This document shows positions 1,059-5,818 of a stretch of DNA of 8,017 bases, piece after piece (position 1 is the stretch's first letter; every line of letters starts with the position of its first letter). Source of the stretch: Desulfobacula sp. Lineage in GTDB: Bacteria; Desulfobacterota; Desulfobacteria; Desulfobacterales; Desulfobacteraceae. Below the pieces are notes generated by a model. It did no database searches. It worked only from the letters and a program-made list of their open reading frames with translations, and was not told the origin of the DNA. Position numbers and translations under genes: made by a program. Location of the stretch: NCBI GenBank assembly GCA_027858355.1, contig JAQICW010000130.1, positions 1 to 8,017 on the forward strand, read 5' to 3'.

Positions 1059-1511
1059 ATGAGACAGAAAATAAGATTTGAAAAACACATGAAAGCTGAC
1101 AAGATAATAATTCTGGAATCCAGTGAAGTGGATCCAGGTGTTGTTTTGCTGCTCCATGAAGAAGAATACAGTCTTAAAGAGATGACAAAAGCTTATGAGG
1201 AAGGCTTCCTGCCTTTTTCCGATTTTATAAGAAGGAGAAGCTTTTTCCCCACTTCTGACCTTTGCAATAAGCTTTTTGAGAGCATGATTGAATTTTTTAA
1301 AAATGATGCCCAGGAAAAAATTATCATTGAATATAATGATATCGAAGCTTTTCCAAAGGAAGAAGAATTTCAACTGGAAGATGATGATGTCGAGATTGAT
1401 AAGATACTGGAGGAAGATGGGGAAACCAGTGAAGATGAGATAAAAGAAATAGACTCTGAAGATGACAGACCGAATTTCACCCCTGAAGATATTTCTGAAC
1501 ACGAAAATTAG
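1059..1511 (+). CDS. Unrecognised 150-aa protein with acidic C-terminal tail, first gene of argS operon
   Basis: I do not recognise this family. The start at 1059 is chosen because AGGAGA (1047-1052) sits six bases upstream; an out-of-frame ATG at 1055 opens only a nine-codon frame. The protein has two parts. Residues ~1-95 are mixed and look folded, with a basic start ([15 protein letters not shown]), a hydrophobic strand 'KIIILESS', the segment '[29 protein letters not shown]', the motif '[10 protein letters not shown]', and a helix to about residue 95. Residues ~100-150 are very rich in Asp and Glu, probably disordered. There is no signal peptide or membrane segment, so it is likely cytoplasmic. 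The stop is TAG, followed after one codon by TGA in the same frame. argS begins only 8 bases after the stop, so the two genes are surely cotranscribed. Acidic tails can bind basic partners or mimic nucleic acid; that is speculation. Confidence 0.8.
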
Positions 1512-3225: not shown

Positions 3226-3927
3226 ATGATATCCTTTAAAGGGATTTTAAAATATTTAATTTACATATTTATTGCCGGATGGATGTTTTTATTGGGCATC
3301 ATGGTAGGGCGCGGCACTTCTCCTGTAACTTTTGATACCCATGAATTTCAAAAAAGGCTTGAAATCATTGCCAATGAATTCGGGGAAAAAAAAGACGTCC
3401 CCCAAAAAATGGATCTAAAATTTTATGATGTCCTGGATAGACCTGTGCGTGAAGAAAGCGTGCTTTCCAAAAATAAACCTTTGGAAATTATGCCTAAAAA
3501 AGAAATATCTGAAACAAAATTACCTGAGACTGAATTACCTGAAACAGAAACGCTGGAAAAGCAAACAAGTGTTACCCCGGATATCCTTCCACCAAAGATC
3601 AGCAGAAAAAAATTAACGTTTAAAAAGATGACTCAAAAGGTTCCGGCAGATATTGGAGCAAATGAACCCCTTAAAACAGACAAGGGAATATACACGATTC
3701 AGATTGCAGCCTTTAAAGAGTTTAAAGATGCTATTTCTCAAATGGCCCTGCTTGATGAAAAAGGATTCCCTTCTTACCGTGAAAAAAGTGAAAAAGATGG
3801 CGTTACCTGGTACAGGGTGAGAACGGGTTCCTTTGCAAATTGGGAAGAAGCTGAAAAAATGAAAGATAAATTAAATAAAGCCAGGATCAATGCCCAAATC
3901 ATAAAAATAGATCATAAAAAAGGATAA
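3226..3927 (+). CDS. Membrane-anchored SPOR-domain protein
   Basis: This is a single-pass inner-membrane protein with an extracytoplasmic SPOR domain, a fold that binds denuded glycan strands of peptidoglycan at division sites. Residues ~7-28 form one hydrophobic segment ending in 'MVGRG', a usual junction in such proteins. Residues ~30-150 are a charged, Lys/Glu/Pro-rich linker containing three tandem pentapeptides of the T-x-x-x-E type (TKLPE, TELPE, TETLE; ~97-111). Residues ~154-231 are the SPOR domain: 'GIYTIQIAAFKEFKDAISQM' at its start, 'WYRVRTGSFANWEEAEKM' in the middle, and a final strand 'NAQIIKID'. The ATG at 3226 is the only sensible start; it lies two bases after argS, and translation is probably coupled because the upstream ribosome site is weak. 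Its last base overlaps the first possible start of gatC. The gene name cannot be assigned from sequence; a role in cell envelope or division is inferred from the domain. Confidence 0.88.
   Translation: MISFKGILKYLIYIFIAGWMFLLGIMVGRGTSPVTFDTHEFQKRLEIIANEFGEKKDVPQKMDLKFYDVLDRPVREESVLSKNKPLEIMPKKEISETKLPETELPETETLEKQTSVTPDILPPKISRKKLTFKKMTQKVPADIGANEPLKTDKGIYTIQIAAFKEFKDAISQMALLDEKGFPSYREKSEKDGVTWYRVRTGSFANWEEAEKMKDKLNKARINAQIIKIDHKKG
3514..3558 (+). repeat. 15-bp tandem repeat (3 units) in the SPOR-protein linker
   Basis: Three consecutive 15-base units (3514-3528, 3529-3543, 3544-3558) encode TKLPE, TELPE and TETLE. The first two differ at three bases; the third is more diverged. Since the unit is a multiple of three, copy-number change would only lengthen or shorten the periplasmic linker. 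Confidence 0.7.
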
Positions 3928-3929
3928 TG

Positions 3930-4217
3930 ATGAAGATATCAACAAATGAAGTTGCAAAGATTGCCCACCTTGCTCGGTTGGAGGTTGATACATCGCAAAA
4001 AGAGGAAATGGCTGAACAGCTGAGCCATATCCTTGGATATATTGATAAACTCAAAGATGTAGATGTTGAGGGGGTCAAGCTTTCTTCAGGAGCGGCTTTT
4101 ATGAATAATGTGTTAAGGGATGATGAATTGAAAGTATCACCAGGTCCTTGTGTAACCCTTGCCAATGCACCGCAAAGGGATGAGGATTTTTATATTGTTC
4201 CCAGGATTGTTAAATAA
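3930..4217 (+). CDS. gatC: Aspartyl/glutamyl-tRNA amidotransferase subunit C
   Basis: GatC is the small stabilising subunit of the GatCAB complex, which converts Glu-tRNAGln and/or Asp-tRNAAsn to the correctly charged form in organisms lacking GlnRS or AsnRS. The 95-residue product has the family signature at its N-terminus ('VAKIAHLARLEV'), the middle helix 'LSHILGYIDKLKDVDVEGV', and the C-terminal 'LRDDE' and 'NAPQRDEDFYIVPRIV' segments that wrap around GatA. ATG codons occur at 3927 and 3930; the second is preferred because AGGA (3921-3924) is then five bases away and the product begins MKIS as is usual. The 3927 start would overlap the preceding stop by one base. The final codons (Arg-Ile-Val-Lys-stop) are themselves the first unit of a 16-bp tandem repeat that continues downstream. 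Confidence 0.96.
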   Translation: MKISTNEVAKIAHLARLEVDTSQKEEMAEQLSHILGYIDKLKDVDVEGVKLSSGAAFMNNVLRDDELKVSPGPCVTLANAPQRDEDFYIVPRIVK

Positions 4218-4316
4218 TTGGATTGTTAAATAATTGGATTGTTAAATAATTGGATTGTTAAATAATTTGGGTGGTTAAATAATTTTGGTAGTTAAATACT
4301 TGGATTGTTAAATAAT
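4203..4316 (+). repeat. 16-bp tandem repeat, seven units, covering the gatC stop and gatC-gatA gap
   Basis: Units with consensus TGGATTGTTAAATAAT lie head to tail: 4203-4218 (first base A), 4219-4234, 4235-4250, 4251-4266, then two diverged 17-base units (4267-4283, 4284-4300), and a last perfect unit at 4301-4316. Unit one encodes the end of GatC, so the array most likely grew by duplication of the gatC 3' end. Because 16 is not a multiple of three, the TAA in each unit falls in successive frames, so the array blocks translation in all three. It separates gatC from gatA, which often sit almost together. Confidence 0.95.
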
Positions 4317-4348
4317 TCACAGGTATGAGAGAATAAGGAAAAGATAGA

Positions 4349-5818
4349 ATGGAATACCACGAACTGACCATTGAAAGAGCTGGGAAATTGCTTTGTGACC
4401 ATCAAATTTCTTCTTTTGAGTTGACATCTGCCCTGCTTGACCGCATTGAAAAATATGATGATGAAATAGGTGCATTTATAACTATTGATAAAACCATGGC
4501 CCTTGAACAGGCCAGAAAAGCTGACAAGGATATTTGCGACAACAAAATTTTGCCATTAACGGGTGTGCCCATTGCATTAAAGGATCTTTTGTGTACCAAG
4601 GGAATAAAAACAACCTGCGGATCACAGATTCTTAATAATTTTATTCCGCAATATGATGGTACAATTGTTAAAAAATTAAAGGAAAATGGTGCTGTCATTA
4701 TCGGCAAAACCAATCTGGACGAGTTTGGCATGGGGTCTTCAACTGAAAATTCTTCTTATAAAATTACGGCCAATCCCTGGAATAAAGCCTATGTGCCTGG
4801 TGGTTCCAGCGGGGGATCTGCTGCAGCCGTGGCAGCCGGGTTTTGCTGCGCTGCCCTTGGGACGGATACAGGGGGTTCCATCCGCCAGCCAGCGTCCCAT
4901 TGCGGGGTGGTGGGTCTTAAACCCACCTATGGCAGGGTATCCAGGTTTGGACTGGTTTCCTATGCATCTTCCCTTGATCAGATCGGCCCCATTGCTAAAG
5001 ATGTTAAAGATGCGGCAATATTGCTGAATATCATATCTGGAAATGACAAAATGGATTCCACCAGTGCAAAGGTTGATGTGCCTGATTTTACCAAAGCCTT
5101 TGATCTATTTGAAAAGGGTTCCTTAAAAGGAATGACAGCAGGAATTCCAAAAGAATATTTGTGTGTTGACGGCATTGACCCTGAAGTTGAAAATGTCTTT
5201 AATGATGCCAGGCGGATTCTTGAGGATATGGGGGTTGAAATTAAAGAAATATCTCTGCCCCATACTGACTATGTTGTTGCAGCCTATTATATTATCGCGC
5301 CCAGTGAAGCCAGCTCCAATCTTGCCAGATTTGACGGGGTTAAATATGGTTTCAGGGAAAAAGTGTGTAATGATCTTGTTGATATGTATAAAAGAACCAG
5401 GTCAAAAGGGTTTGGACCGGAAGTGAAAAGAAGAATCATGATCGGGACCTAGGCGCTTTCAGCTGGTTACTATGATGCTTATTATGGAAGGGCCTCAAAG
5501 GTTCGAACCTTGATCATGGAGGATTTTTCAAAGGCCTTTGATGCCTGTGATTTTATCCTGTCTCCTGTGGCGCCTGCTCCTGCATTTAAGATTGGTGAAA
5601 AAATGGATGATCCATTAACCATGTATTTGACAGATATTTTTACGCTTTCTGCCAACATGGCAGGTATTCCCGGGATATCCGTCCCGGCAGGCTTTTCTTC
5701 GGCAGGGCTTCCCATCGGCATCCAGATGATGGGAAGGCGATTTGATGAATTGTCGCTTTTAAGGGCAGGCTATGGATTTGAAAAGACAATTAAGTTAGAT
5801 GTGAGATGTGAGATTTGA
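4349..5818 (+). CDS. gatA: Aspartyl/glutamyl-tRNA amidotransferase subunit A, with in-frame TAG at codon 368
   Basis: GatA is the glutaminase subunit of GatCAB: it releases ammonia from glutamine (or asparagine), which GatB uses to amidate misacylated tRNA. The start ATG at 4349 has AAGGA (4335-4339) nine bases upstream. The amidase-signature triad is visible: Lys78 in 'GVPIALKDL', cis-Ser153 in '[15 protein letters not shown]' and nucleophile Ser177 in '[12 protein letters not shown]'. After 'KRRIMIGT' (residue 367) comes TAG (5450-5452), then in the same frame '[12 protein letters not shown]', 'KVRTLI', '[13 protein letters not shown]', '[24 protein letters not shown]' and '[10 protein letters not shown]', ending at TGA 5816-5818. 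The full frame is 489 residues counting codon 368, normal for GatA. Stopping at 368 would remove about a quarter of the enzyme, including conserved substrate-site regions such as the Asp of 'YLTDIFT'. There is no frameshift. Readthrough, suppression, mutation and sequencing error all remain possible. The last six residues (DVRCEI) fall at or inside a heptamer repeat. Confidence 0.93.
5450..5452 (+). other. In-frame amber (TAG) codon inside gatA
   Basis: This TAG sits between 'RRIMIGT' and '[11 protein letters not shown]'. GatA proteins carry an aromatic residue here (GTY or GTF followed by ALS), so a single base change from TAC or TAT (Tyr) explains it. Sequence on both sides keeps the same frame and family conservation. 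Confidence 0.95.

Follow-up and report, generated by a model that had tools for sequence, protein, structure and literature searches.

Pyrrolysine (Pyl) is placed by PMC8318568 in the trimethylamine methyltransferase of Deltaproteobacteria close to Desulfobacula, and selenocysteine in other proteins of these bacteria. Parts of PMC3639795 treat the prediction of Pyl genes, and parts of PMC7593587 treat Pyl in gut Bilophila. Bacteria are described in PMC3941956 as handling Pyl through regulation, not through codon avoidance. As for the amidotransferase whose gene is considered here, PMC4206432 describes Bdellovibrio as making asparagine on tRNA by means of GatCAB and a non-discriminating AspRS.

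The window (the whole stretch of DNA analysed, 8,017 nucleotides from Desulfobacula sp.) contains a plus-strand gatA frame that runs from an ATG at 4349 to a TGA at 5816-5818 and amounts to 489 residues if a TAG at 5450-5452 is read through. This TAG is codon 368, in frame on the plus strand, as both the ORF listing and a direct check of the letters indicate. It is the sole stop inside the frame, which is open on both sides. The part up to and including the TAG (4349..5452, 367 residues) was delimited from the ORF listing and from alignment to GatA structures; the remainder (5453..5818) consists of 121 codons and the TGA, and is conserved as protein. With the TAG taken as a residue, the frame aligned with six bacterial GatA structure sequences, from residues 2-18 to 479-482, and with a seventh, mitochondrial, over residues 69-471; homology to the solved GatA 3h0l and 2df4 reaches residue 482. 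By homology, then, the frame appears to be a full-length GatA of GatCAB, and the preliminary description was right about the codon, its coordinates and its intact flanks. Residue 368 aligns with Phe364 of Staphylococcus aureus GatA, six residues past Arg358; this arginine and Asp425, whose numbering was confirmed by alignment, are presumably functional residues. The site had also been described as aromatic in the family, and it is: across 124 proteins (the query and 123 matches) there were 84 Tyr and 37 Phe, the others being the query itself and two proteins without a match to the motif used.

The closest loci, as judged from GatA, belong to Desulfobacula or near kin. Identity to the window GatA is 97% for L001 (genome G001), 96% for L002 (G002, Candidatus Desulfobacula maris), 96% for L004 (G004, whose GatA is cut and ends at residue 440) and 91% for L003 (G003). 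Over 1320 bases of gatA DNA, G001 is 96.8% identical to the window, G004 95.3% and G002 95.2%; the figures are about equal for argS-gatC (G001 96.2%, G004 96.3%) and for part of mutL (G001 92.9%, G002 93.2%). A gatA tree of 24 rows, comprising the window and 23 relatives (G015, with a short gatA, was left out), pairs the window with G001 (support 99/97).

Codon 368 is covered in 24 of 26 Desulfobacula genomes, G014 having no gatA match and G021 a match to residues 1-128 only. It is TAT in 22 of these and TTT in two; TAG occurs in none of the 24, 12 of which have a tRNA-Pyl match. The comparison with orthologues that the preliminary description had proposed thus finds the TAG unshared. Among the properties expected of natural Pyl proteins, conservation of the protein across the TAG is present here; retention of the TAG at the same site in the orthologues of Pyl users, was not seen. 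Outside the genus assemblies, a metagenome protein of 489 residues, P0002, is 99% identical to the window GatA and shares its private residues Ala216, Met294 and Arg349, and it has Tyr368. It comes from a JGI contig of 3326 bases, and its cluster has 39 member sequences. Residues 285, 288 and 291 of P0002 are odd, and its sequence may be of poor quality, a point against what follows.

We consider it probable, with good confidence, that a lone T-to-G change turned TAT into TAG, either as a base or assembly error or as a recent nonsense variant, no recoding being established. The reading is based on the single base that separates TAG from TAT, on the sense codon in 24 of 24 covering relatives, on the near-identical P0002 with Tyr368 and on the state of the frame past the TAG. 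According to this scheme, the change would have hit a conserved Tyr codon in one sequence, and its two possible origins, an error or a recent variant in a Desulfobacula population, would have about even chances. Error, population variant and fresh mutation had been listed as alternatives in the preliminary description, and they now fit best.

The state of the frame was assessed from silent and replacement differences. For codons 369-489 there were 12 silent and 1 replacement differences to G002, 7 and 4 to G001, and 34 and 10 to G003; for codons 1-367 the numbers were 30 and 16, 21 and 11, and 55 and 31, respectively. Replacement codons are therefore not raised 3' of the TAG relative to the 5' part. 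As the frame also has no other stop, decay as a pseudogene was rejected. The absence of decay implies that the change is young, or absent from the cell (an error), or that the TAG is read through. A very young change or an error needs no extra assumption.

The rest of the window bears on the question of error. In plus-strand order it contains an ORF without Pfam match, argS, a SPOR-domain gene, gatC, gatA, a small ORF without match and mutL; two tRNA-Ser genes lie on the minus strand. The argS, SPOR, gatC and mutL genes are all open. Directly upstream of gatA, gatC (3927..4217, plus strand; Pfam GatC, E 2.2e-16) is intact and ends in TAA. A 16-base tandem repeat, in seven copies and resembling the end of gatC, occupies 4204-4317 between the two genes. 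At otherwise fixed columns, changes private to the window numbered 10 of 2152, compared with 4 of 1948 in G001, 3 of 1169 in G002, 13 of 1274 in G003 and 1 of 1449 in G004. Since the count for the window is within the range of its relatives, poor sequence across the whole window was rejected, while one wrong base is still possible. The otherwise clean window counts against the reading as a lone change.

A second gatA, which could relieve the first, had been another alternative. It was discarded: in 25 of the 26 genus genomes a single match reaches at least 75% identity and in G014 there is none, further matches of the search being amidases at 30-45% identity. More widely, GatA was matched, by strong and sometimes partial matches, in 77 of 86 family genomes. 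No inner TAG was found in the matched parts, and 76 of the 77 had no inner stop of any kind there, which indicates that loss of gatA is selected against over longer times and which also weighs against the lone change. The remaining genome has an inner TGA in its gatA match (G071:C125:27821-28837). A truncated GatA of 367 residues was absent from the 120 protein-collection matches listed, out of 8000 candidates scored; clusters at 90% identity can hide one.

The TAG might instead be read. If the organism had a pyl cassette and decoded TAG at least partly as Pyl, it would make a full-length GatA with Pyl replacing Tyr368, and the conserved frame past the TAG would be accounted for. In the genus, matches to tRNA-Pyl, found by pattern and then by similarity, occur in 13 of 26 genomes, and CUA anticodon and fold were inspected in nine of these 13; the loop motif of the pattern is one that we take to be characteristic of tRNA-Pyl. 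PylS was matched in 10 of the 26 (9 over the cut-off) and PylD in 10; among the matches listed, 11 genomes have an MttB with a single in-frame TAG. All four are carried by G002. G004 has a tRNA-Pyl, a TAG-bearing MttB and a partial PylB at a contig end, and PylS and PylD gave no match in it. Run on ten short pylS loci, ARAGORN did not report a tRNA. It is very likely that the Desulfobacula lineage reads TAG as pyrrolysine, patchily, in line with what the preliminary description had said of some Desulfobacterota.

Two of the three nearest relatives have a tRNA-Pyl match, which tells against the reading as a lone change. The nearest of all by the gatA tree, G001, has no PylS, PylD, tRNA-Pyl or TAG-bearing MttB in 4.1 Mb. 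Absence from an assembly that may be incomplete is weak evidence, but the four together make it plausible that G001 is Pyl-free, which speaks for the lone change and against insertion of Pyl. An 18-kb contig of G001 carries the neighbours of the G002 pyl genes, and seven pyl-region proteins had no match there; the flank arrangement in G004 and G017 differs from that of G002, and the G001 contig is no demonstrated empty site. On balance we lean towards a window organism that carries a pyl cassette. Even so, Pyl insertion in GatA is unlikely, and it retains what weight it has because a suppressor is close at hand in the genus. GatA would hinge on the supply of Pyl, which bacteria regulate according to PMC3941956, and the RNA 3' of the TAG had no clear folding excess (z -1.37; 18 of 200 shuffles were equally good).

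Some genomes have more than one tRNA-Pyl. Two distinct genes, 89% alike, are found in G002 at C16:7407-7480 (L148) and C24:24723-24791, and G006 likewise has matches at two places. The tRNA-Pyl of G002, G004, G011 and G017 are 97-100% alike, and other carriers match these at 88-90%; these similarity groups suggest two pyl cassettes within the genus. Beside the tRNA-Pyl gene of L148, about 75 bases (L148:7335-7411) form a dispersed repeat, present on many contigs of G001, G003, G004 and G017 at 76-96% identity.

How Pyl carriers use TAG is a further point. Among coding ORFs of at least 80 codons, those ending in TAG were 111 of 586 in the 0.77 Mb sampled from G002 (about 4.8 Mb) and 66 of 330 in the 0.42 Mb sampled from G011 (about 4.4 Mb), so that TAG closes roughly one ORF in five over the 1.19 Mb of these two Pyl carriers. 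The numbers were 27 of 144 in loci of other carriers (0.18 Mb) and 10 of 55 in genomes taken as Pyl-free (0.06 Mb), the latter not being a clean control, as tRNA-Pyl turned up in G004 and G006 only after these genomes had been chosen. TAG is not reassigned genome-wide in the related carriers sampled, G002 and G011. In the window, the ORF without Pfam match at 1059..1511 (plus strand), which precedes argS, ends in a TAG that is kept as terminal stop in all 10 relatives compared, the Pyl carriers G004, G006, G007, G010, G011 and G012 included, with a second stop one or two codons beyond. That Pyl carriers routinely end genes with TAG again favours the reading as a lone change.

Coding-like stretches past a TAG were sought with and without a rule against a nearby ATG. 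With the rule, there was one in G002, one in G011, two in other carriers and none in the Pyl-free set. Three are MttB pieces; in the fourth, L214:8401 of G011, an AAGGAG site separates a FecR piece from an OmpA piece downstream, and two genes are most likely. Without the rule, there were 9 of 111 in G002 and 14 of 66 in G011, of which a family scan assigned four and one, respectively, to MttB or MtbB; the others, apart from L214:8401, were sorted by eye and are likely to be the starts of next genes. In G011 the proportions without the rule were 14 of 66 for TAG versus 16 of 193 for TAA and 0 of 71 for TGA, and with the rule 1 of 66, 2 of 193 and 0 of 71. The TAG excess without the rule, which counts against the lone change, may be due to close-packed genes. 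A stricter filter left coding-like extensions past 1 of 50 TAG in G002 and 6 of 38 in G011, with 6 of 152 and 6 of 84 for TAA, and 0 of 67 and 0 of 31 for TGA.

The accepted in-frame TAGs in the 1.19 Mb of G002 and G011 are five methylamine methyltransferases, a restriction that disfavours Pyl in GatA. Two MttB and two MtbB genes of G002 are among the genes with an in-frame TAG (L166:996, L166:11392, L168:369 and L123:10287). No housekeeping gene with an accepted in-frame TAG was found in these two samples, and the earlier proposal that incidental TAGs are tolerated in the housekeeping genes of Pyl carriers is not borne out there. The filter, which took its codon scores from the very stretches that were scanned, recovers 630 of 2259 simulated stops (1648 of 2259 without the ATG rule); its sensitivity being incomplete, a rate of stray TAGs well under one per hundred genes could be missed. 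For regulation of Pyl rather than codon avoidance, PMC3941956 cites Prat and others (2012).

Read-through need not involve Pyl. According to a published survey, many inner stops of bacterial genes are read through (PMC7918605), and this too weighs against the lone change. A mutated tRNA-Tyr, -Gln or -Ser could act as an amber suppressor and read the TAG as an ordinary residue, but we judge this very unlikely: the anticodons of the two tRNA-Ser genes in the window, GCT and TGA, are normal, and TAG terminates genes in the relatives. The ARAGORN search for suppressor tRNAs covered the window and the ten short pylS loci. It is still less probable that GatA is made in two pieces that assemble, translation re-initiating at TTG 5510 or ATG 5516. 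An ORF from 5510 to 5818 is indeed present, but the two pieces would leave out a conserved stretch, from residue 368 up to the restart, both putative starts are codons that the conserved protein uses in any case, and there is no sign of selection for re-initiation.

If the lone change is real and the TAG is read as a stop, the product would lack residues 368-489, a part that contains the counterpart of S. aureus Asp425, and a GatCAB with the shortened GatA should be inactive. The preliminary description expected severe harm from such a stop, GatA being needed for Gln-tRNA or Asn-tRNA. The gene sets of the relatives do not support this expectation. GlnRS was matched in 24 of the 26 genus genomes (23 over the cut-off) and AsnRS over the cut-off in 22, G001, G002 and G004 being included in both cases. 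In most Desulfobacula genomes GlnRS, AsnRS and GatCAB co-occur, as in Bdellovibrio. With both synthetases so widespread, direct charging of tRNA-Gln and tRNA-Asn could continue in the cell, and loss of GatCAB would probably cost asparagine synthesis on tRNA, not tRNA charging; a stop in gatA is thus probably not lethal, which is in favour of the lone change. Of the 26 genus genomes, one has AsnA. Seven genomes were searched for AsnB-like genes and five gave matches, three of them (G002, G011 and G017) over the cut-off; G001 and G004 had none at E 1e-30. Outside supply or AsnB could cover the lost synthesis.

The overall interpretation in the preliminary description therefore stands for the codon, its site and the Pyl-using lineage, and is not supported for the essentiality of gatA and the tolerance of stray TAGs. 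The case is a warning that an isolated amber codon, seen in a single sequence, counts for little even where the lineage has a suppressor. Were the TAG read as Pyl, GatA would be among the rare housekeeping enzymes that naturally contain this residue, and would provide a test of how partial suppression shelters nonsense changes. The pyl genes being patchy in Desulfobacula and TAG still a common stop, the genus is well suited to a count of such sheltered changes. It is also conceivable, though improbable, that GatA is an accidental Pyl protein, with tRNA-Pyl yielding enough full-length GatCAB to tie asparagine synthesis on tRNA to methylamine metabolism. This would be a snapshot of an expanded code making a housekeeping gene dependent on it.

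Compared with the Pyl methyltransferases MttB and MtbB of Desulfobacula and other bacteria, the locus has in common a single in-frame TAG with conserved flanks, in a genus with tRNA-Pyl, PylS and PylD. However, MttB keeps its TAG (25 of 29 rows over the cut-off carry one), and in five pieces scanned the position was fixed, after profile position 355 in MtbB (3 of 3) and 313 in MttB (2 of 2), whereas the gatA TAG is private to one sequence and replaces a Tyr in a different enzyme. Ordinary nonsense variants and base errors of metagenome assemblies resemble it in being stops one base away, unshared and without downstream decay; unlike these, it lies in a gene that is normally maintained, and its lineage has a second use for TAG. 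As for GatCAB itself, the presence of both direct synthetases beside it in Desulfobacula recalls the type of Bdellovibrio, Deinococcus and Thermus, in which it serves asparagine synthesis on tRNA (PMC4206432). In Desulfobacula such a role is predicted from gene content, and AsnB-like matches, that of G002 being over the cut-off, set Desulfobacula apart from this type.
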